Below, piece after piece: positions 188 to 10,920 of a stretch of DNA of 10,920 nt; position 1 is the first letter of the stretch; each line of letters starts with the position of its first letter. Location: NCBI GenBank assembly GCA_001790855.1, contig MGDH01000043.1, positions 1 to 10,920 on the forward strand. Reading direction: 5' to 3'. The notes under the pieces are model-generated. The model made no database searches, was not told the DNA's origin, and was given only the letters and a program-made list of their open reading frames with translations. Position numbers and translations under genes: made by a program. The stretch is from Candidatus Schekmanbacteria bacterium RIFCSPLOWO2_02_FULL_38_14. Its GTDB lineage: Bacteria; Schekmanbacteria; GWA2-38-11.

Positions 188-1894
188 TTGAACTATGCAG
201 AAGATTTGATTACTGAAATACTGTCGAGCCAGCCAGGTATCACTCAGGAACAGATTGAGAAGGCAATAGAGGAACAGTCAGAAAAAGGCGGAAGGCTTGC
301 AGACAACATTGCTGCCTTGGGATATATGGCGGAGATTGATGTTCTGAGAGCGATTGGAGAAAAGCTGAACATCCCGTTTCTTCCTTCAATAAAAGATGAG
401 GATGTTGATTCGGTATACATATCAAAGGTTCCTCTAAATTACCTTAAAAATAATTTTATTTTTCCATTAAAAAGAGAAAATGGTTCACTTTTTGTAGCAA
501 CTGCAGACCCTTTCGATACGCAGATTCTTGATAACATTTCATTGTATCTTGAGGAGGAAGAAGCCAAGCCTGTTATCTGTCCAAAGGCTGAAATAACTGA
601 TGCCATTAACCGGTATTACCACCACGAGTCAGCAGATGCCGAGCAGATGATAAAGGATATGGACGAGGATATTTTTGACACAATTACATCTTTATCAGAG
701 GAACCTAAAGACCTTCTTGATATTTCAGATGACGCGCCAATAATCAAGCTTGTAAATGTTATCCTCTTTCAGGCGGTTAAGAAAAGAGCAAGCGATATCC
801 ACATAGAGCCATTTGAAAAGGAGCTCAGGGTAAGGTACAGGATAGACGGGATACTTTATGATACAATAAACCCGCCTGTAAGATATTTATCCGCAGTAAT
901 TTCAAGAATTAAAATTATGGCAAATCTTGACATAGCCGAAAAAAGGCTCCCTCATGACGGAAGGATAAAAATCAAAATAGCTGACCGCCTTATTGACATC
1001 AGGGTTTCAATAATTCCCACTGCCTTCGGCGAAAGAGTGGTTATGAGGCTTCTTGACAAGTCAAGCATTCTTTTAGGGCTTGAGGATGTAGGGCTTTTTC
1101 CTGATGATTTAAAGACCATTCATGCAATGATTAAAAAAACTAACGGAATAATCCTTGTCACCGGTCCTACAGGAAGCGGAAAGACAACAACACTTTATGC
1201 AGCCCTTACAAAAGTGAATACTACTGATAAGAATATAATAACAATTGAAGACCCGATTGAATACCAGCTTTTTGGGATTGGACAGATACAGGTGAACACA
1301 AAGATTGAGCTGACATTTGCCCGTGGGCTGAGGTCTATTTTACGGCAGGATCCTGATATTATAATGGTTGGAGAAATCCGCGATGTTGAGACTGCTGAGA
1401 TTGCAATTCATGCATCGCTTACAGGACACCTTGTTTTTTCAACACTTCATACAAATGATGCTGCAGGGGCTGTTACAAGGCTTTTAGATATGGGTGTTGA
1501 GCCGTTCCTTGTTTCATCAACCCTTTCTGCTGTAATAGCGCAGAGGCTTGTCAGGGTTATCTGCAATGACTGCAAGGAGAGTTATGTGCCTGATGATGAA
1601 TCCCTTTCGGAAATAGGAATTGGAAGAGACCAGTTGAAGGACGGCGTTTTTTACCGCGGCAGGGGTTGTCCTTCTTGCGTGAATACCGGTTACAGGGGAA
1701 GAATTGGAATTTTTGAGATTCTCAAAATGGATGAAGTGACAAAAAAGCTTGTTCTTGAGAAATATGACTCAAATGCAATTAAAAAAGAAGCTGTGAAGAA
1801 CGGAATGCTAATTTTAAAGCATGATGGCGCAAGAAAAGTGATTGAAGGACTTACAACAATTGAAGAAGTTCTGAGGGTTGCTCACGAGGAGTGA
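188..1894 (+). CDS. gspE: Type II secretion system ATPase GspE
   Basis: This 568-aa protein is the cytoplasmic hexameric ATPase that drives pseudopilus assembly in type II secretion, docking on GspF and GspL. The N-terminal part (about residues 1-145) is the GspE/PilB-type N domain, including PFLPS near 63. The catalytic domain follows. It has the SDIHIEP block near 205, Walker A GPTGSGKTT at 326-334 (Lys332), a His box GHLVFSTLHTNDA, and the Walker B-like DPDIIMVGEIRD at 388-399 with Glu396. A tetracysteine zinc motif, C459-x2-C462 and C494-x2-C497, is the form seen in GspE and PilB. It is slightly longer than many GspE proteins. Translation begins at TTG with a strong ribosome binding site. 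PilB of a type IV pilus is the only real alternative, and the following GspF-K order favours GspE. Confidence 0.95.
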   Translation: MNYAEDLITEILSSQPGITQEQIEKAIEEQSEKGGRLADNIAALGYMAEIDVLRAIGEKLNIPFLPSIKDEDVDSVYISKVPLNYLKNNFIFPLKRENGSLFVATADPFDTQILDNISLYLEEEEAKPVICPKAEITDAINRYYHHESADAEQMIKDMDEDIFDTITSLSEEPKDLLDISDDAPIIKLVNVILFQAVKKRASDIHIEPFEKELRVRYRIDGILYDTINPPVRYLSAVISRIKIMANLDIAEKRLPHDGRIKIKIADRLIDIRVSIIPTAFGERVVMRLLDKSSILLGLEDVGLFPDDLKTIHAMIKKTNGIILVTGPTGSGKTTTLYAALTKVNTTDKNIITIEDPIEYQLFGIGQIQVNTKIELTFARGLRSILRQDPDIIMVGEIRDVETAEIAIHASLTGHLVFSTLHTNDAAGAVTRLLDMGVEPFLVSSTLSAVIAQRLVRVICNDCKESYVPDDESLSEIGIGRDQLKDGVFYRGRGCPSCVNTGYRGRIGIFEILKMDEVTKKLVLEKYDSNAIKKEAVKNGMLILKHDGARKVIEGLTTIEEVLRVAHEE

Positions 1895-1903
1895 TAAAAA
1901 GCA

Positions 1904-3136
1904 ATGGGAGTTTATGAATATAATGCATTAAATTTTAAAGGTAAAGAGATTACCGGTATTATAAATGCAGACTCACTTCTGGATGCAAGACAGAAAATAA
2001 GGGGTCTTGAACTTCACGTGAGCAGGGTAAGGGAACTTGAGGAAGGAGAGGGGAGTGAGAAAAAATCTCTGGACCTTTCCAGCATCAAAGGACTTGTAAG
2101 CTGGATTAAGCCTCAGGAGATTTCGCTTTTTTCAAGACAGCTTGCAACCCTTCTCAAAGCAGGACTTCCTCTTATAATGGCTCTCAATGCTTTAATTGAC
2201 CAGTTTGAGGGATCAAAAATCAGGAAGGTTATTTACCAGATAAGGGAAAAGGTTAATGAAGGAAGCTCTTTAGCAAATGCCCTTTCAGACCATCCAAGGT
2301 ATTTCTCCGACCTTTATGTGAGCATGGTGAGGGCAGGAGAGGCAAGCGGCGCTCTGGATATTGTGCTTGAGAGGCTTGCGGAGTTTTCAGAGAAACAGAA
2401 CGAGCTGAAGAATAAGATAAGGGCAACTCTTGCATATCCTGTAATTATGTGCGTCATAGGGTTTGCAATCCTCGGGTTTCTTTTTACCTATGTGATACCA
2501 AAGGTTACATCCATTTTTGAGCAGACAAAGCAGGCTCTGCCCCTGCCAACACTACTTTTGATTGGGATAAGCAGTTTTCTTAAGAAATTCTGGCTGGTTA
2601 TAGTAGTTGCAATTATTGTTGCCTATGTAATGATAAAAAGAACATTGAAGACAGAAAAGGGAAGGTATTTTTATGACAACTTGAAACTAAAGCTTCCAAT
2701 TTTTGGTTCCCTTTTCCAGAAGATAGCAATTTCTCGTTTTGCCAGAACACTCGGCACTTTACTCAACAGCGGTATTCCTATTCTGCAATCTCTTGATATT
2801 GTTAAAACCGTTGTTGCCAACAAGGTTTTGCACAAGGCGATTGAGGATGCGGGACAGAATATTTCTGAGGGCGCAGACATTGCCACTCCTTTAAAGAAAA
2901 GCAAGATGTTTCCTCCAATTGTAATACATATGGTTGCAACAGGAGAAAGAAGCGGCCAGCTTGAAAATATGCTTTTAAAGGTTGCTGAGAGCTATGATAG
3001 CGAAACAGATTCGACAATAAAAGCTCTGACTTCTCTTATGGAGCCAATAATGATAGTTCTTATGGGAATAGCAGTTGGTTTTGTGGTTATTGCAATATTG
3101 CTTCCGATTTTTGATATGACAAAGGGAATTAGATGA
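1904..3136 (+). CDS. gspF: Type II secretion system inner-membrane platform protein GspF
   Basis: This 410-aa polytopic inner-membrane protein is the platform on which GspE acts to push pseudopilins outward. It carries the duplicated T2SSF domain typical of the GspF/PilC family, at about residues 75-198 and 278-400. The duplication is visible by eye: FSRQLATLLKAGLPL is echoed by FARTLGTLLNSGIPI, and MVRAGEASGALDIV by MVATGERSGQLENM. Three membrane segments lie near 177-201, 226-245 and 380-402. Length is normal for the family. The ATG start lies nine bases after the gspE stop, with GAGGAG at 1886-1891 as a somewhat distant ribosome binding site (12-base spacing). It is probably co-transcribed and translationally coupled with gspE. 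Confidence 0.95.
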   Translation: MGVYEYNALNFKGKEITGIINADSLLDARQKIRGLELHVSRVRELEEGEGSEKKSLDLSSIKGLVSWIKPQEISLFSRQLATLLKAGLPLIMALNALIDQFEGSKIRKVIYQIREKVNEGSSLANALSDHPRYFSDLYVSMVRAGEASGALDIVLERLAEFSEKQNELKNKIRATLAYPVIMCVIGFAILGFLFTYVIPKVTSIFEQTKQALPLPTLLLIGISSFLKKFWLVIVVAIIVAYVMIKRTLKTEKGRYFYDNLKLKLPIFGSLFQKIAISRFARTLGTLLNSGIPILQSLDIVKTVVANKVLHKAIEDAGQNISEGADIATPLKKSKMFPPIVIHMVATGERSGQLENMLLKVAESYDSETDSTIKALTSLMEPIMIVLMGIAVGFVVIAILLPIFDMTKGIR

Positions 3137-3312
3137 GTTGGTGAATGGGGAGAAGTGAATAGTGAACAGTATTTAGTGAATGGTGAATAGGTGTTATAAT
3201 GTCAAATGTTAAAATTCAAAGTTCAAATGAAATCCAAAGCTTAAATGACTAAAATTTTCAGAATTTGGATTTTGACATTCATTTGACATTTGGATTTTAG
3301 TATTTGGATTTA
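3137..3312. repeat. Short-word and inverted-repeat intergenic sequence between gspF and gspG
   Basis: The first part (3137-3190) repeats the word GTGAA about five times. The second (3199-3312) is built from words such as ATGTCAAATG, TCAAAG and TTTGGATTTT. ATGTCAAATG at 3199-3208 is the exact reverse complement of CATTTGACAT at 3280-3289, so a long AT-rich hairpin could form. TTTGGATTTT recurs three times on the right side. No plausible gene lies here. It looks like a dispersed non-coding repeat, with related words at 6468-6492. Confidence 0.55.
3192..3200 (+). promoter_or_regulatory. Candidate extended -10 promoter upstream of gspG
   Basis: TGTTATAAT fits the extended -10 consensus TGnTATAAT exactly. 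The -35 region 17 bases upstream (TTTAGT at 3172-3177) is weak, as is allowed for extended -10 promoters. It would give the pseudopilin genes, led by the abundant pseudopilin GspG, their own transcript with a leader of about 130 bases that contains the inverted repeat. Sequence match only. Confidence 0.4.
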
Positions 3313-3335
3313 ATAATCAAAATGAGGGAGAAAAT

Positions 3336-3785
3336 ATGAAAAAAGCATTAAGCTCAAATTCTGGCTTTACATTCATTGAGATAATGGTTGTAGTTGTAAT
3401 AATAGGTATTCTTGCAACCCTTGTTGGCACTGCTGTTATTGGGAGAATTGATGAAGCAAATATTGCCAAGGCTAAAAGCGATATAGCAACCCTTCAGGGT
3501 TCGCTTCAACTTTATAAACTTGATAACGGGAATTACCCGACAACGGAACAGGGACTTGATTTGCTTGTAAAACCTCCTGCTGAAACTGAAGGCTCAAAAA
3601 CATGGAAAGAAGGGGGATATATTGAAGGAGGAAGGCTTCCTTTGGATTCATGGAAAAACCAGTATCAGTACCTCTCACCGGGCGTCAATAATCCAAATTA
3701 TGATTTGTGGTCTATGGGAAAGGACGGGGAAAGCGGCAATGAAGATGATATTCAGAGCTGGAATCTGGATAAGGCATGGAAGTGA
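3336..3785 (+). CDS. gspG: Major pseudopilin GspG
   Basis: This 149-aa protein is the main subunit of the periplasmic pseudopilus. It has a type III (prepilin) signal cut between Gly10 and Phe11, giving a mature end FTFIE with Glu at +5, followed by the hydrophobic helix to about residue 34. GspG-family marks follow: NYPTTEQGL at 67-75, LDSWKNQYQY at 103-112, and a C-terminal loop DLWSMGKDGESGNEDD at 123-138 that corresponds to the calcium-binding loop of GspG/PulG, with Ser126, Asp130, Asp137 and Asp138 as likely contributors. GAGGGAG at 3324-3330 is a good ribosome binding site five bases before ATG. Length is normal. The repeat-bearing gap separates it from gspF. Confidence 0.96.
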   Translation: MKKALSSNSGFTFIEIMVVVVIIGILATLVGTAVIGRIDEANIAKAKSDIATLQGSLQLYKLDNGNYPTTEQGLDLLVKPPAETEGSKTWKEGGYIEGGRLPLDSWKNQYQYLSPGVNNPNYDLWSMGKDGESGNEDDIQSWNLDKAWK

Positions 3786-3800
3786 GAGTGGAACGAGATT

Positions 3801-4304
3801 ATGAAGAAAAAAAAAGGATTTACCCTGATAGAACTCTCAATAGTAATATTTATTATTGGCCTTATGGGGCTTTATGTCCTCCCTAATATGGGAGACAGGC
3901 TTTTCCATACCGAGACGAAATTTTCTTTAAGAAGGATTGCAGGCAACATCAAAGAAGTTTTTAATTTAGCTGCCATAAAAAGGCAGACTTATTATTTTGT
4001 TTTAGACCTTGATAAAGACCGCTACTGGGTTGCGCTTCCTGATGACAAGGGAAATCTTTCTGAAGAAGCATCAACCCATATGATTCATATTGAGCTTGCC
4101 AACAAAATAGACCTCGTTGATGTGGCAACTGCAAAAGAGAAATACAGCAAGGGTGAGAATATCATTCTTTTCACTCCAAGAGGGCTTTCAGAGAAACACC
4201 TGATTCACCTTAAAAGCAATGACACAAACTACACCCTGATTATCTCTCCTTTAACCGGACAGGTAGATATAAAAGAGGGTTATGTGGAACTCACAAATGC
4301 GTGA
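3801..4304 (+). CDS. gspH: Minor pseudopilin GspH
   Basis: This 167-aa protein has a very short prepilin leader, MKKKKG, cut before Phe7 (mature FTLIE, Glu at +5), then a hydrophobic helix and a beta-rich globular domain ending in LIISPLTGQVDI. Position directly after gspG, together with length and leader, supports the minor pseudopilin GspH, which sits near the pseudopilus tip. Sequence conservation outside the helix is low in this family, so the assignment rests partly on order. The start is preceded by a weak GAGAG/GGA ribosome binding site. Codons 2-5 contain a run of nine A bases (3807-3815), a possible polymerase slippage site. It begins 16 bases after the gspG stop. Confidence 0.85.
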   Translation: MKKKKGFTLIELSIVIFIIGLMGLYVLPNMGDRLFHTETKFSLRRIAGNIKEVFNLAAIKRQTYYFVLDLDKDRYWVALPDDKGNLSEEASTHMIHIELANKIDLVDVATAKEKYSKGENIILFTPRGLSEKHLIHLKSNDTNYTLIISPLTGQVDIKEGYVELTNA

Positions 4305-4659
4305 TGAAAAGGGTTTTACCTTTCTTGAAATAATGGTTGCAGTTGCAATCCTTTCAATTGCCCTGATTGCTGCTTTAAGAGCCCAGTCACAGAGCCTTTC
4401 AATTGCAAGCGAATCAATAAGAACTACCAATGTTGTTTTTCTGGCAAGAGAGAAGATGGCTGAAATTGAACTTGATGGCTATCCCCAGCAGGAGAAGACA
4501 GACGGAGTATTTGAAAAGCACCCTGAATACAGATGGGAAATAGAAGTAAAGGAAACTCCAGTTGAAGATTTAAAGGATGTTACCCTGACAATTCTGTGGA
4601 AAGAGGGTGACAGGGAGAGGAGGTACAGTCTTGAGACTCTGTTGGCAAGGAAAGACTGA
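4297..4659 (+). CDS. gspI: Minor pseudopilin GspI
   Basis: This protein of about 120 aa is a minor pseudopilin that, with GspJ and GspK, forms the tip complex starting pseudopilus assembly. From the chosen ATG the leader is MRDEKG, cut before Phe7, giving mature FTFLEIMVAVAILSIAL with Glu at +5, followed by the alpha/beta domain with LAREKMAEIELDG, typical of GspI. A second in-frame ATG lies at 4282 and would add five residues (MWNSQ). It has AGAGGG only two bases upstream, too close. The 4297 start has GGA at an eight-base spacing, overlaps gspH by eight bases, and gives a leader like that of gspH, so it is preferred, though not certain. Translational coupling to gspH is likely. Confidence 0.85.
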   Translation: MRDEKGFTFLEIMVAVAILSIALIAALRAQSQSLSIASESIRTTNVVFLAREKMAEIELDGYPQQEKTDGVFEKHPEYRWEIEVKETPVEDLKDVTLTILWKEGDRERRYSLETLLARKD

Positions 4660-5340
4660 ATGAAAATCAAAAATCAAAAATCAAAAATCAAAATTACTGA
4701 AGGCTTTACCCTTCTTGAGCTTGTAGTTGCAATTGCAATTTTCGCTATTATTTCAACCTTTGTATACGGGGCATACACGGGTACTGTTTCTACAACAGAA
4801 AGAGCTCAGAAAAAAATAGAATTTTACCAGAAGGCAAGGCTTGTTCTTAGCAGAATCTCTGAGGAAATTGAGCAGGCAGCGCCTCCGCGCGAGAAGGGAG
4901 AGATGCCGGATTTTTCTTATTTTTCAGGAAGCAATGATGAAATCAACGGAGTCAATGCGGATGAATTGAGGTTTGTAAGCCGTGCTGACAGTGGTTATTC
5001 AAAAGAAAGCGGAAAACCTGCAATTGTCAGAATCACCTATCGCATAGAAGTGGCTTCAGGAGAAGGGAATGAATATTATGTTCTAATAAGAAAAGAGGAC
5101 CCGATTTTTTTCAGGGAAGATGAGGAACGCGAAAAGACAGAAGAATTTCTTGAAAAATGCGAGGGAATAAATTTTGAATATTATTCTGATGAAGGCTGGG
5201 TAAACGAATGGGATGACCAGACAAGCACTGGAGTGGAAGGCAGGATACCAAAGGCTGTAAGAATTACTCTGACATTAAAGGACGATGAAGACAAGCCAAG
5301 AGATTTCAGCACCACAGTTTATTTGCCACAGGGAGGTTAG
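4660..5340 (+). CDS. gspJ: Minor pseudopilin GspJ with repeat-encoded leader
   Basis: This 226-aa minor pseudopilin is part of the GspI-J-K tip complex. The prepilin leader is 15 residues and rich in lysine, cut between Gly15 and Phe16 (mature FTLLE, Glu at +5), then the helix LVVAIAIFAIISTFVYGAY and a beta-rich domain. Length and the position between gspI and gspK fit GspJ. ATG follows the gspI stop directly (TGAATG), with AAGGA at 4647-4651 eight bases upstream. Oddly, codons 2-10 are made of four exact 7-bp repeats, so the leader is largely repeat-derived. Losing or gaining one unit would shift the frame and reach a stop within about 20 codons. Confidence 0.9.
   Translation: MKIKNQKSKIKITEGFTLLELVVAIAIFAIISTFVYGAYTGTVSTTERAQKKIEFYQKARLVLSRISEEIEQAAPPREKGEMPDFSYFSGSNDEINGVNADELRFVSRADSGYSKESGKPAIVRITYRIEVASGEGNEYYVLIRKEDPIFFREDEEREKTEEFLEKCEGINFEYYSDEGWVNEWDDQTSTGVEGRIPKAVRITLTLKDDEDKPRDFSTTVYLPQGG
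4663..4690 (+). repeat. Heptanucleotide tandem repeat in the gspJ leader
   Basis: Four exact copies of AAAATCA follow the gspJ start codon immediately, and a partial copy AAAT continues after. The unit length is not a multiple of three, so copy-number change alters the frame. Confidence 0.95.
5331..5336 (+). promoter_or_regulatory. Ribosome binding site fixing the GTG start of gspK
   Basis: GGGAGG lies six bases upstream of GTG at 5343-5345, inside the last codons of gspJ. It supports the GTG start, which gives the expected prepilin leader. Confidence 0.8.
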
Positions 5341-5342
5341 AA

Positions 5343-6461
5343 GTGAAGAGGTTCTATAAAGAAGAAAGGGGATTTGCCCTTGCTCTGGTATTGCTGATAA
5401 CCACCCTTGTTGTGATTACAGTTCTTGAGTTTAATTATGAGATGAGAGTGGATGCGAGCATTGCGTCTAATTACAGGGATGACCTGAAGGCTTTGTATAT
5501 TGCCAAGGGTGGAGTGAATGCTGCTATTGCTCTTCTGAGGCAGGATTTTAGGACAGATAAGGAAAGACACGCAGGCCAGCAGGTTGACTCTCTTGATGAA
5601 GACTGGGCAAAACCTGAAATGACACTGCAGATTGGCAAAGGAGTGGCAACAGGAATGATAATTGATGAGTCAGGAAAGATAAACCTGAATGAATATTTAA
5701 AGGAAAGCGAGGATGAAGAAGACAAGAGTGGAGATGGAAAAAATAAAGGAGGAGGGGAAAAAAGCATTGAGACAAAGGAAGAGCAAAAGGAAAATATTGT
5801 AAGAAGAATTTTTGACAACCTGTCTGTAAGCAATAATAATACAGATGAAATAATTGAATCACTCCTTGACTGGCTTGGAGAGAGTTCTGAGGATAATCCA
5901 AGTATTGAGGCATATTACCATTCATCACCTTCTCCCTATGATAGTAAAATTTCCCTCCTTGACGACATTACAGAGCTTATTCTTGTTAAGGGAATGAGCA
6001 AAAATGTTTTTTATCAGGAGAAAGAAAAAAATTTATATGAGGAAATAACAGGACAGGAAAAAGACGAGACTGAGATTTCAAAACCTTTTCCAAGTATTTT
6101 CACTGTTTATTCAAAATTAAAAGGGGAAATTAATATCAATACTGCTCCAAAGGAGGTTCTTCTTGCGTTTCACGAGGATATGGATGAAGAAACAGTGAGC
6201 GAGATTATTGATAAAAGGACAGAAGAGCCTTTTGAATCTAAAGATGAAGTCAAGAAATTATCGCAAACAATTCAGGATATTTTTGAAGATAAACCAGAAG
6301 GACTGAAGGGAATAAGAGATTTAATTGATGTAAAAAGCAATTTTTTCAGAATAATTGCCCATGGAACTATCAATAATGTCACAAAGACAATCGAAGCAGT
6401 TGTTTTCAGGGATGCAAAGAATGATGGACGGATAACAATTAAATCATGGGCAGAGTTTTAA
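5343..6461 (+). CDS. gspK: Minor pseudopilin GspK
   Basis: This 372-aa protein is the large minor pseudopilin that caps the pseudopilus tip. The leader MKRFYKEERG is cut before Phe11. The mature +5 residue is Leu, not Glu, as is usual for GspK because it sits at the tip. The membrane helix is followed by NYRDDLKALYIAKGGVNAA, typical of the family, then DESGKINLNE near 108, LLDWLG at 174-179, SLLDDITELILVKGMSK at 204-220, and the second helical domain starting GEININTAP at 261. Most GspK proteins are a little shorter. The extra length includes a low-complexity charged stretch at about 119-150, rich in Glu, Asp, Lys and Gly. It starts with GTG two bases after the gspJ stop and is the last gene of the operon. 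Confidence 0.93.
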   Translation: MKRFYKEERGFALALVLLITTLVVITVLEFNYEMRVDASIASNYRDDLKALYIAKGGVNAAIALLRQDFRTDKERHAGQQVDSLDEDWAKPEMTLQIGKGVATGMIIDESGKINLNEYLKESEDEEDKSGDGKNKGGGEKSIETKEEQKENIVRRIFDNLSVSNNNTDEIIESLLDWLGESSEDNPSIEAYYHSSPSPYDSKISLLDDITELILVKGMSKNVFYQEKEKNLYEEITGQEKDETEISKPFPSIFTVYSKLKGEININTAPKEVLLAFHEDMDEETVSEIIDKRTEEPFESKDEVKKLSQTIQDIFEDKPEGLKGIRDLIDVKSNFFRIIAHGTINNVTKTIEAVVFRDAKNDGRITIKSWAEF

Positions 6462-6726: not shown

Positions 6727-9636
6727 TTACGGCAATCCTAACTGGAGGGCAGGGTCTCCGAAAAGAGCCAAATCTTCAAGGTACTCATCTGGAAGATAGG
6801 TGTTGGTTACAGCGGAAATCAGAGAGTCAGTAACAGCCTTGCCGAGTGTTTTTTCTTTGTTCTGAAAAATAGTTTTAAAAAGCTCAGTTCCTATCTTTTC
6901 ATAATCTGCATTGAACCCGACCCCTGTTGCTCCCCAGAATCCAATTGCCCCTTTGTCTTTGGCAAGTAAAAACTCCTCGCCAAGGCTTTCACCTAAATAA
7001 TCAGGAAAAAATCCGTTCAGACAGTTCAAGGTGGTTACAAAGGTCAATTTATTGTTATTGCTGAGGGATGGAATATCATCAGAAGTAAATATTTTTTCAC
7101 GAGCCCAGTCGACTTTATCACCATGACCTGTGTAATTTGTAAGAAGAGCGCCATCGTTTATTCCGTTAATAATTTCAGTTCTTGTTGCTGAAACAATATT
7201 TTGTAACTGAGCATCTGAGGTATCTTTTGGGTAGTCAGACAAATAGGTTTTCTGAGATATAAAAGGATTTGATAAAAGAGCTGCTAAATTGTCAGAGAGA
7301 TTAGGAAAGTTTCCTCCATCATCAGGAACGCCATCTTCTATATAATTATCTGATATCAACAGAACATTATTATTCCAATCTGAAAATGGCTGGGAGTTTT
7401 CATAATTTATAATTTTGTTAACAACTGCTTCTACTTCTTCTTTTGTTTTAGCAGGAATCCGTCCAATATAAATATCAGGAAATTTATCGTCTCCGTTAAC
7501 AGAAACAAACCAGTTATCAGATGGAGTTGGTCCAAAGAATGAAGTGTTTACAAGTTTTACAGGGATATAATTCTTAACTCCACTCTTTATATAGTCTTTA
7601 TAATCATAATTGGCATCTCCGACTAAAAGCACATACTGTGGTTTTGGGTTCCAGTTTTCATAGGTAAATTTCAAGAAATCTCTTATTGCATCAGGGGTGA
7701 AGATTCCGGAACTAAACTCATCATAAACATCATCTATTTTTACAACTTTTACGTTTAGTCCTTTGCCTTCTCTAAAGACCTTAAGCGGATTTATGGCATC
7801 ATAAAAATCTTTGTGTGTAATGATAATATAATCAGCACCGTTTCCGGAAGATTTTAAAGCTGACTCTTCGTCAATTTCTATCGTATCAGACTTTTTGACT
7901 TTGTTTTTTTCAATTGCATAATAATTCTTTTCTCCTTCTATCTTGTCTTTGAACAAGGCTGCAAATTTTCCAGCAATCTTTTTTGTTTTAGCCTTGATAA
8001 CCTTTACTTCATATGGGTCAGTAACATCAAAAACTTCTATGTTTTTTGTAGAAAAATTTGTCACCTTGAACTGAGAATTTTTATTTCCTGTTTTTGAAAA
8101 AATAAGGCTGTCATTTTCTGCCGCAAGGAGTTTATAATATCCTATCTCAAACCAATTCAGATTTATCCCGTCAATTGTTATTCCTTTATCAGCAAAGGCT
8201 TTAATTTCGAGAGTGTTTTCTTCGTTTTTAAGCAATGAATGGGGGATGGTTTTGTTAGGCGAATATTCAGAAAATCCATCCCATTTTTTTTCATCTACTA
8301 ATTTATCATTAAGAAAAATCTGCGTATGATGGTCTGGATTAACAGGGACATCTGTTAACCCTTGAAATGAAACTTTCAGAGATGTATTTCCATTTTTCTT
8401 TTTGAGGTTGTTTAAGGTGAAATTGATTGTGAAAGACTTGCTGGTGTTTTCCTCTGTGATAAATGTATGCCAGAACCAGTGTTCTTTTCCTTCTTTCTTT
8501 GGTATTGTCTGGGTGTATTCGATATTTTCTTCGCCATGGTAAATTGCTTTGAAAGAGCTTTCAAATGGTTTGGATAAAGAAGGGGATGTTCCGGAATTAT
8601 TCATCCTTTTTCCGGGAGCATCGTCTATAACAAGCCAGTAGATATTTGTATCAGTAAATTCTCCATTGTTTTTCTCTCCGTAAAATTCAATGTAGTCCCC
8701 ATCATCAAAGACTCCATCATTTTCTCCCATAGAGAGAATTGCTAATTCATTTTCCTTGTTGAACATTCTGATGTTTTTGGGGTCAATGGTAGAGGTGTCT
8801 ATGCCAGCCTGTTCTAAATCACTGGAAGTAATCCTGTAGATTCCGTCCTCTTTTATTGCTATTTTCAGAGATGGAAATTGAGTTGCGGAAAAAATTGAAG
8901 TCTTTTGGGATGAGTTGGATTTAAAATTAACTTTTTGTATATCAGGTTCAAAGGATATTTGAATTTTGATTTTTGGATAAACCCTTATTTCTCTTGAAAC
9001 AGGATTAAACTGTACAGGGAAAATTTTCAGTAAAGCGACTTTCTGGTTCCTTATAAAACCTTCCTTAGAGATTTCCACAATATTTTCAGGATAGAATTCA
9101 TTTTTAGAATAAATGTTGCCATTAATAGCAAATCTTTTTGAGATTATAAAATTTCCATTGATTTCCTGTGAAAATCCCCCCTGCCCCCCCCTTATTAAAG
9201 GGGGGTAAAGGGGGATTGTCTTATTATTTTCTTTGCTCTGTTGAGGTATGAGTATTTCCTGAGAGTATATTTCTGGGTATGGAGAAAGATAAAAACCTTT
9301 ATAAATATTGGAGCGGGCTTCAATAATTTTATATGATAATTTTTTTCCAGAAGGAATTTCAATCAATTTGCTTTTGACAGGCAAGATTGGTGCGCCGGGG
9401 ATATTTGTTGAACCAGAATTTTCCAAGCTGATTCCCTGGAAAAGTTCTCCATTTATCTCTTTATTATGAGATTTTATCCCTCCAGCTTTGAACTCGTAAA
9501 CAAGAGAGTTGCTGTCCGAGCTTATAAGTTTCAACTCTCCGGAATAAGCCGGTGACAGAGTGAATAAATTAAATAAAAATAAAAAAAATGGTGTCAGAAT
9601 TAAATATTGTTTTTTTATTTTATTTTGTTCAAACAT
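6727..9636 (-). CDS. Secreted gingipain-type cysteine protease (peptidase family C25)
   Basis: From ATG at 9636 the product is 969 aa. It has a classic signal peptide (KIKK, a hydrophobic run, SPAYSG). A C25 propeptide-like region follows (PGAPILPVKSKLIEIPSG), then a region like the PorU/C25 N-terminal part (DGIYRITSSDLEQAGID, IEFYGEKNNGEF). The catalytic domain covers roughly the last 370 residues. It includes YVLLVGDANYDY, PSDNWF, DIYIGRIPAKT, the histidine in YTGHGD (His838) and the cysteine in LNCLNGFF (Cys872), so the catalytic dyad is intact. It ends LALFGDPALQLGLP without a type IX sorting domain. Export by Sec then T2SS is plausible but inferred. A palindromic repeat inserted in frame encodes residues 141-155. 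An in-frame TTG at 9660 would add eight residues, but the promoter makes it unlikely. Confidence 0.88.
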   Translation of the reverse strand: MFEQNKIKKQYLILTPFFLFLFNLFTLSPAYSGELKLISSDSNSLVYEFKAGGIKSHNKEINGELFQGISLENSGSTNIPGAPILPVKSKLIEIPSGKKLSYKIIEARSNIYKGFYLSPYPEIYSQEILIPQQSKENNKTIPLYPPLIRGGQGGFSQEINGNFIISKRFAINGNIYSKNEFYPENIVEISKEGFIRNQKVALLKIFPVQFNPVSREIRVYPKIKIQISFEPDIQKVNFKSNSSQKTSIFSATQFPSLKIAIKEDGIYRITSSDLEQAGIDTSTIDPKNIRMFNKENELAILSMGENDGVFDDGDYIEFYGEKNNGEFTDTNIYWLVIDDAPGKRMNNSGTSPSLSKPFESSFKAIYHGEENIEYTQTIPKKEGKEHWFWHTFITEENTSKSFTINFTLNNLKKKNGNTSLKVSFQGLTDVPVNPDHHTQIFLNDKLVDEKKWDGFSEYSPNKTIPHSLLKNEENTLEIKAFADKGITIDGINLNWFEIGYYKLLAAENDSLIFSKTGNKNSQFKVTNFSTKNIEVFDVTDPYEVKVIKAKTKKIAGKFAALFKDKIEGEKNYYAIEKNKVKKSDTIEIDEESALKSSGNGADYIIITHKDFYDAINPLKVFREGKGLNVKVVKIDDVYDEFSSGIFTPDAIRDFLKFTYENWNPKPQYVLLVGDANYDYKDYIKSGVKNYIPVKLVNTSFFGPTPSDNWFVSVNGDDKFPDIYIGRIPAKTKEEVEAVVNKIINYENSQPFSDWNNNVLLISDNYIEDGVPDDGGNFPNLSDNLAALLSNPFISQKTYLSDYPKDTSDAQLQNIVSATRTEIINGINDGALLTNYTGHGDKVDWAREKIFTSDDIPSLSNNNKLTFVTTLNCLNGFFPDYLGESLGEEFLLAKDKGAIGFWGATGVGFNADYEKIGTELFKTIFQNKEKTLGKAVTDSLISAVTNTYLPDEYLEDLALFGDPALQLGLP
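9173..9217. repeat. Palindromic C-rich repeat inserted in frame in the C25 protease gene
   Basis: The + strand reads AATCCCCCC, CTG-type spacer, a C-run, TTATTAA, a G-run, TAAAGGGGGATT: an imperfect inverted repeat with arms of about 19 bases. On the coding strand it translates as IPLYPPLIRGGQGGF, a Pro/Gly peptide unlike the flanking protein. It is related to the repeat at 6492-6560. Confidence 0.75.
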
Positions 9637-9660
9637 AATAATAAATCTTGGTTTGGTCAA

Positions 9661-9689: not shown

Positions 9690-9894
9690 TTTGGTATAAA
9701 AAATCTCAAAATGTTAAATCCCTTGCATGGTTTAATTTAAAGTAGTTTATTTTTTCATCTGGAAGAAGTGGAACTAATTGTTTTACAAGTCGTTTCAGAT
9801 AGCTTTTATAGAAGGTTAATTATTCTGAAAGGTGTTAAAAGGGAATAATTTTATCATTTTATCAAAACCATTCAATATTAAATTACTACTAATC
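9690..9894. other. Gap between the C25 protease and the small peptide gene
   Basis: These AT-rich bases contain the approach to the C25 promoter but no GC-rich hairpin that would end the peptide transcript. One minus-strand open stretch (9819-9706, 37 codons, no usable start codon) has a protein-like composition with many Lys and Leu, but no supporting signal. Confidence 0.4.
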
Positions 9895-10050
9895 TCAACT
9901 TCCCTGATTAAAGCATTGGGGTATTATACACTGGCTCTGGGTTGGTCCAGAAATGCTGATTCCCTTGCAGACCCCAAGAACAGCTTCCTCAGGGACAAGT
10001 TTTATTTGTCTGAGCTGAGGCTTTTTGTAAGTTTTAAGTTTCTTTTTCAT
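9895..10050 (-). CDS. Small cysteine-containing peptide, possible RiPP precursor
   Basis: This 51-aa gene is normally missed by length cut-offs. ATG at 10050 is preceded by AGGAG five bases upstream, and TGA lies at 9897-9895. The N-terminal half is basic and leader-like (MKKKLKTYKKPQL), containing YxxPxL at residues 8-13, then LVPEEAVLGVCKG at 18-30. The C-terminal half is uncharged, rich in Ser, Gly, Gln and Ile, and holds C41 and C46 after C28. There is no signal peptide. This leader-then-core layout, and the likeness of YxxPxL to the motif bound by RiPP recognition elements in lasso peptide leaders, suggest a modified-peptide precursor. That is inference; no maturation enzyme is visible. 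It lies 46 bases after the S8 protease stop on the same strand, so co-transcription is possible. The translation of the opposite strand here is a shadow. Confidence 0.7.
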   Translation of the reverse strand: MKKKLKTYKKPQLRQIKLVPEEAVLGVCKGISISGPTQSQCIIPQCFNQGS

Positions 10051-10055
10051 ATAGT

Positions 10056-10060
10056 CTCCT
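10056..10060 (-). promoter_or_regulatory. Ribosome binding site of the small peptide gene
   Basis: AGGAG on the minus strand lies five bases before ATG at 10050. It is the strongest such site on this strand in the window and is the main argument that the 51-aa frame is translated. Confidence 0.75.
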
Positions 10061-10096
10061 AATTTTCCTATTTCTTTTCTTTCCGCTAAATACTAT

Positions 10097-10920
10097 TTAT
10101 TTTATTAAAATCGGGCCATAAATAGTGCTTTCGCCTCTGTTATTGATATCTTCGAGTTTATACCAATATATTTTGCCATAGCTGGCTTTTTTATCAATAA
10201 ACCTGTAGCTTGCGCCATTTAATTTATTCCCTCTTGCAATAATAATTTTTTTGTTAATCTTTGTGTACTTACCATTTTCAGCATTGCTTCTTAAAATATT
10301 AAAACCAAGATTGTCAATTTCAGATTCTGTTGACCAATCCAATATCACTCTTTTCTTTTTCTGCTGAGCGATATTATTTTTCTTTGAGTTTGATTCAGTA
10401 GCAGTAAAAGAGGACAGAGAGATAAGTGTTGGCCCGCTTGGAAGATTTAGCCTTCCTGAACCATAAATGTTATCTTTGCCGGCAGTTCCCATATCAATTG
10501 CATTTCCTTCAAGATAGGATTGAACCTGGTTGACAGTAAAGGAGGGAAATCTCTGCCATACAAGTGCGGCTGCTCCCGCGACATGAGGAGATGATGCAGA
10601 AGTACCAAACCAATGCCCGTATGTAAAACTATCAACATTATCAGGACCTGCAATATCAGGTTTTATTCTTGGAGTTGCTCCGTTCCAGTTTGTTGTTGGT
10701 CCCTTGGAACTGAAGCTTTCCTGAGGTCCTGTTGTCCAACTTGATGAAGCGATGGCACCAACTGCCATTACTCCGGTTGCATCAGCAGGAGACATAAAGC
10801 TTCCAGAAGGAGTCCTGTTGTTTGATTGAAGGTCGTGTCTGAAGGTGTATAATTTCATATCGCAGTTTCTTGTTGTGGAAAAATTTTCTATAATTATTCC
10901 GTAACTTCCAGAACCTCCGG
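10097..10920 (-). CDS. Subtilisin-like serine protease (peptidase family S8), C-terminal part
   Basis: The frame is open to the right edge, so 273 residues of a longer protein are seen. The Met at 10858 is internal, not a start. The first about 25 residues (GGSGSYGIIIENF, then MKLYTF) look like the end of a beta-sandwich insert. The subtilase core then shows PADATGVMAVGAI, SSKGP, RIKPDIAGPDNV and the catalytic serine block FGTSASSPHVAGAAAL, with Ser encoded at 10600-10598. The catalytic Asp and His lie outside the window. After the core (GSGRLNLP) comes a fibronectin-III/FlgD-like domain, from ILDWSTESEIDNLGFNILRS to YWYKLEDINNRGESTIYGP, common at the ends of secreted proteins in Deltaproteobacteria-like lineages. 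No anchor follows. It is probably secreted. Confidence 0.9.
   Translation of the reverse strand, partial: GGSGSYGIIIENFSTTRNCDMKLYTFRHDLQSNNRTPSGSFMSPADATGVMAVGAIASSSWTTGPQESFSSKGPTTNWNGATPRIKPDIAGPDNVDSFTYGHWFGTSASSPHVAGAAALVWQRFPSFTVNQVQSYLEGNAIDMGTAGKDNIYGSGRLNLPSGPTLISLSSFTATESNSKKNNIAQQKKKRVILDWSTESEIDNLGFNILRSNAENGKYTKINKKIIIARGNKLNGASYRFIDKKASYGKIYWYKLEDINNRGESTIYGPILIK

Follow-up and report, generated by a model that had tools for sequence, protein, structure and literature searches.

A small overlooked gene of Schekmanbacteria is supported as a RiPP precursor whose relatives cluster with radical SAM, HprK-like kinase and SipW-type peptidase genes

Does a short reading frame near the end of a Schekmanbacteria contig encode a RiPP precursor and, if so, which enzymes would mature it? 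The frame lies in the window (the whole stretch of 10,920 nucleotides analyzed here), which is contig C43 of the 43 contigs of the source genome (G000). An initial annotation of this DNA had proposed a complete frame with a strong ribosome-binding site and a peptide carrying YKKPQL, PEEAVLGVCK and CIIPQC. Translation of the minus-strand frame, giving MKKKLKTYKKPQLRQIKLVPEEAVLGVCKGISISGPTQSQCIIPQCFNQGS, confirmed the frame, with AGGAGA 4 bases before the ATG, and contains each of the three blocks. The features of the gene are as follows.

9895-10050, minus strand: gene of the 51-residue peptide, supported as a RiPP precursor; stop codon at 9895-9897
10055-10060, minus strand: ribosome-binding site AGGAGA, 4 bases 5' of the ATG, from the sequence
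10012-10029, minus strand: leader motif YKKPQL, residues 8-13, with a precedent in PMC13381572
9976-9993, minus strand: conserved junction PEEAVL, residues 20-25; a leader cut after Ala23 is predicted by inference
9898-9981, minus strand: predicted core, residues 24-51, with Cys28, Cys41 and Cys46; its boundary is inferred
9898-9900, minus strand: C-terminal Ser51, a predicted phosphorylation site (inferred)

The overlooked frame is a real, conserved gene. No Pfam or NCBIfam model scored over its cut-off on the peptide. G000 holds 3 copies in total, the two paralogues on C4 and C26 being 65-68% identical, and the Schekmanbacteria relatives G002, G001 and G003 hold about 10, 4 and 2, respectively. 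The family consensus is MxxxKKxYxKPTIKKVKLVPEEAVLGVCKxDTGAGPNQSxCxIPQCFNxGS, with a core that is almost invariant among the dispersed Schekmanbacteria precursors. Pooled over 105 pairs from 15 copies, pN/pS was 0.19 at a pS of 0.75, indicating selection on the encoded protein. The initial annotation had held that its reading would fail without homologues in related genomes or without protein constraint in the substitution pattern; it passed on both counts, with copies in three relatives and a constrained pattern. Some copies look degenerate: the one on C113 of G001 lacks a start codon at the usual position and ends in Arg, and two in G002 (C6 and C14:107695) have lost most of the leader (coordinates L045:2229-2381; L041:9573-9683; L038:9695-9856). 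L004, L005 and other matches at E values near 0.1-1 were excluded as weak, and plasmid and viral collections contained no relatives of the peptide. Separately, three weak relatives stand in tandem behind a protein carrying an FnIII-like domain in G104 (L112:2007-4966), a genome of a different phylum.

Homologues were also found in about 14 further lineages (the number of family labels among the genomes searched), within clusters of modifying-enzyme genes. These clusters encode a PqqD-type recognition protein, a radical SAM/SPASM enzyme, an HprK-like kinase and a SipW-type (S26) peptidase, often with NTP_transf_5 and an ABC exporter, both of which are present in the full clusters. The G041 homologue, for instance, lies among two radical SAM genes and genes for an HprK-like kinase, a methyltransferase, an S26 peptidase and NTP_transf_5, with PqqD immediately upstream. 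Matches occurred in 7 of 82 genomes of the G047 phylum and in 15 of 386 of a wider sample. The precursor accompanied the radical SAM enzyme and the HprK-like kinase in G041, G075, G094 and G116 and at all 11 loci retrieved from the wider set; PqqD and S26 were present at most of these loci and unseen at some, and several loci stop at a contig edge. The search profiles included the Gly-Ser end, a mild bias, and several matches covered the leader half only. A conserved small gene with a leader that co-occurs with a recognition protein and a modifying enzyme is a general criterion for a RiPP precursor, and the family fulfils it, in G000 with the enzymes in trans.

The orthologous enzymes of the source genome are encoded on contig C29.

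C29, 59606-59902: PqqD-type recognition protein, free-standing
C29, 58433-59599: radical SAM/SPASM enzyme
C29, 57482-58360: HprK-like kinase
C29, 56993-57475: SipW-type S26 peptidase

The same four-gene locus (56993-59902 in G000) occurs on C4 of G002 and on C237 of G003, where NTP_transf_5 is added; it was not found in G001, which is 70% complete. The surroundings of the G000 locus showed no NTP_transf_5 and no ABC exporter. The C29 genes stand apart from all G000 precursor copies, and a profile search of the maturation-locus stretches of G000, G002 and G003 recovered no precursor of the 51-residue family, so that the pairing of enzymes and precursor rests on orthology. In a maximum-likelihood tree, the radical SAM enzymes of the G000, G002 and G003 maturation loci and of all cis clusters share one branch (support 100/99). 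Eleven further radical SAM enzymes were compared, and 10 of them fall apart from this branch; the eleventh, on a long branch, sides with the C29 type. Alignment showed that CxxxCxxC, the SPASM cysteines, the kinase His and GKST (with the Walker-A Lys) and the peptidase Ser-His-Asp are kept, while the second kinase Asp is replaced by Glu in the three Schekmanbacteria (Asp-Glu versus Asp-Asp elsewhere). The S26 protein of G000 scored 63.2 bits against TIGR02228 (cut-off 51.85) and the PqqD-type protein exceeded its Pfam cut-off; the kinase stayed under that of Hpr_kinase_C, its motifs nonetheless being kept in the alignment. Among solved structures, TbiB1 is closest to the recognition protein and SkfB to the radical SAM enzyme; the latter reached none of the curated maturase cut-offs (AlbA, SkfB, PapB). 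The RiPP precursor reading of the initial annotation, and its suggestion that the modifying enzymes are remote, are supported by the orthologous C29 locus together with the cis-cluster homologues elsewhere.

The leader and the C-terminus suggest how such enzymes could act. Of 33 homologues, 32 retain YxxPx[LIVFA], with Y or W first. This motif is a known contact of the recognition proteins of lasso peptides and of linear polyphosphorylated peptides (LPP; Popov et al. 2026, PMC13381572), and YKKPQL is the predicted contact of the PqqD-type protein, recognition itself being inferred. The YxxPxL motif had been taken as a lasso leader motif; it holds as a leader motif but not as a lasso-specific one, since LPP leaders and the present radical SAM-linked family share YxxPx[LIVFA]. 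LPP leaders are cut by a SipW-type peptidase 16 residues downstream of the motif Tyr, counted inclusively (PMC13381572), and this register, applied to the 51-residue peptide, places an inferred cut after Ala23, between PEEA and VLGVCK. The last residue of the 33 intact precursors compared is Ser in 30 and Thr in 3. For the 17 of them that come from other lineages than Schekmanbacteria, the chance of such an end is about 1e-13 from the local Ser+Thr frequency, assuming independence, a figure that shared ancestry makes less extreme. This ending suggests that the C-terminus is phosphorylated in the manner of PadeK, a kinase whose target in the paeninodin precursor is the C-terminal Ser (PMC9266682); LppK phosphorylates a Ser close to where the LPP core begins (PMC13381572). 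The closeness of the radical SAM enzyme to SkfB makes a Cys thioether plausible, though unproven.

In the proposed route, the PqqD-type protein would bind the leader via YKKPQL and hand the peptide to the radical SAM/SPASM enzyme, which would modify the Cys-containing core, most plausibly to a Cys thioether. The HprK-like kinase would phosphorylate the C-terminal Ser, and the SipW-type S26 peptidase would take off the leader, probably behind PEEA. In Schekmanbacteria a single maturation locus would act in trans on several scattered, near-identical precursors. With no expression or mass data, recognition, chemistry, the modified product, the cut site and phosphorylation are all inferred, as is any joint function with neighboring proteins.

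The genes around the peptide gene are as follows.

10097-10918, minus strand: subtilase, truncated by the contig end; its stop lies 46 bp before the peptide start
about 10097-10429, minus strand: C-terminal FnIII-like domain of the subtilase
6727-9660, minus strand: 977-residue C25 peptidase with a C25 propeptide, 234 bp downstream of the peptide gene

Each of the 13 copies in G000 and G002 has, within 2 kb, a gene whose product carries a C-terminal FnIII-like domain (binomial p about 1e-6 for G000 and 2e-15 for G002), although these values are overstated because some copies share one array. The link runs one way, many FnIII-like genes having no peptide. In G001, an FnIII-like gene precedes one copy, and two others are found at contig edges; no FnIII-like gene accompanies the C113 copy of G001 or the C116 copy of G003. 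The FnIII-like fold itself has support from sequence and from a moderate-confidence model (pLDDT 73; top Foldseek match an Fn3-like protein, E 1.2e-3). On C171 of G003, the genes behind the precursor encode a protein whose end is PEP-CTERM-like and a C25 peptidase that is a homologue of the one in the window (36% over 961 residues). The G002 maturation locus comes after a subtilase 62.6% identical over 187 residues to that of the window, and the cluster of G301 is preceded, at a distance of 36 bp, by a C25 peptidase carrying an FnIII-like domain. What is observed is an association between peptide and exported proteins, and its meaning is unsettled; as most copies stand beside a gene for an FnIII-like exported protein, the mature product probably acts together with this system of surface or secreted proteins. 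That the peptide, with its radical SAM modification and C-terminal phosphate, serves these proteins as partner, subunit or covalent tag, processed or joined by the C25 peptidase, and serves export or display rather than being a free product, is a speculative reading that we think unlikely to be right as it stands; if true, a RiPP would serve a protein-export or surface-display system. The window also carries type II secretion genes on the plus strand (188-6461; GspE, GspF, GspG and GspK over NCBIfam cut-offs, with pseudopilin-like frames between them), which may export the neighboring proteins, a possibility left untested. A type IX secretion context was considered and rejected, SprA not exceeding its cut-off in the four genomes.

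By gene content the family comes nearest to LPP, sharing with it the free PqqD-type recognition protein with a YxxPx[LIVFA] leader, the SipW/archaeal-type signal peptidase and the HprK-like kinase, each borne out on testing, as well as an NTP transferase and an exporter in its full clusters. It differs in having a radical SAM/SPASM enzyme, in a leader without YxxPxVLxHQxIxFETxxS, only the YxxP part being common to both, in a likely phosphosite at the C-terminal Ser instead of core Ser3, and in the dispersal of the Schekmanbacteria precursors. The LPP paper does not mention radical SAM and describes LPP as restricted to Bacillota (PMC13381572). Sactipeptides and ranthipeptides (SkfB, AlbA, PapB) likewise combine a SPASM-type radical SAM enzyme with a Cys-containing core, but the new clusters add a kinase and a SipW-type peptidase, and the bond type is undetermined. 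Several precursors per single maturation enzyme are known from prochlorosins (PMC10783134). There the enzyme is the lanthipeptide synthetase ProcM, of another class. Prochlorosin cores vary strongly, whereas the core of the new family is nearly invariant. The SynChlorMet cassette was rejected as a match, ScmC, ScmE and ScmF giving only weak hits below cut-off, and no paper on it was found in the open-licence literature.

Other explanations were weighed against this evidence. A lasso peptide, its leader cut by a B2 protease and its core threaded by a macrolactam synthetase, would account for the YxxPxL motif and for TbiB1, a lasso protein, as the closest structure; HprK-like kinases and nucleotidyltransferases also accompany paeninodin-like lasso peptides, the kinase with a C-terminal Ser and the nucleotidyltransferase in pseudomycoidin (PMC9266682), and G000 has a Transglut_core3 gene at C1. 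We nevertheless regard this as very improbable: that B2-type protease, used as query, had no match in the cis clusters, the ORFs listed for L108 and L110, both complete clusters, include none recognized as an asparagine-synthetase-like cyclase gene (Pfam was run on part only), and a radical SAM enzyme occupies the cis clusters instead. Somewhat better, yet still improbable, is maturation of the RiPP precursor by another G000 radical SAM locus (C1, C36 or C11) rather than C29. Such loci exist, with PqqD-like and HprK-like genes, and could compete, and the C1 type, present in G000, G001, G002 and G003, shows no precursor of its own; however, C36 and C11 have their own small peptides, and in the tree the radical SAM enzymes of the cis clusters fall with the C29 type, not with those of the C1, C36 and C11 loci.

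An unmodified or disulfide-bonded secreted peptide, merely traveling with exported-protein genes, would fit the conserved cysteines and the close proximity to those genes, but the sequence has no hydrophobic signal sequence and homologues in other lineages sit in maturation clusters, leaving this reading little credence. Hardly any remains for a chance frame or the antisense of another gene, despite the shortness of the ORF and an overlapping, longer opposite-strand frame (9832-10062), given a pN/pS of 0.19 over 15 copies; no antisense frame is open throughout the copies compared, and the 9832-10062 frame, rejected as a gene, is broken in other copies. The shared gene set, the added radical SAM enzyme, the absence of the LPP consensus and the failure to see a lasso protease or cyclase support classifying the peptide as a RiPP precursor that, by the features tested, is filed under neither lasso peptides nor LPP; we infer that the family works like LPP plus a radical SAM step. 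Taken whole, a 51-residue RiPP precursor matured in trans by C29-type enzymes, with an FnIII-linked function, is an explanation that we consider probable.

Neither this precursor family nor its combination of enzymes turned up in the open-licence literature searched. The family would link radical SAM chemistry on peptides with the recently described route in which a kinase and a signal peptidase take part in leader processing, across about 14 lineages. In Schekmanbacteria, a near-invariant product is repeated beside varied exported proteins, unlike the usual layout of one cluster and one product, which suggests a testable surface role.

At C1 of G000 (L079:7027-9982) there are PqqD, HprK-like and radical SAM genes, with similar sets in L083, L086 and L089 and no precursor recognized alongside any of the four; L079 also has a lasso-B2-like Transglut_core3 gene, and frames resembling it occur in L083 and L089. 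A further precursor-like system, unrelated to the 51-residue family (L085:9442-19839 on C4 of G002; L074/L160 on C11 of G000), comprises small peptides with YxxPEVITY and LGxxQAC, an HprK-like gene, an exported FnIII-like protein and a radical SAM gene that is PqqD-like in its N-terminal part, to which G002 adds C25 peptidase, S26 and VanZ-like genes. On C36 (L078:4136-9987) lies a RiPP-like cluster in which two radical SAM genes are accompanied by PqqD, S26-like and NTP_transf_5-like genes; it has a small peptide of its own, MKYEKPELKSLNLKNPEPKSPNDEKIETAGGDVCTEGGNAGTCNIGYDDGHLTGG.
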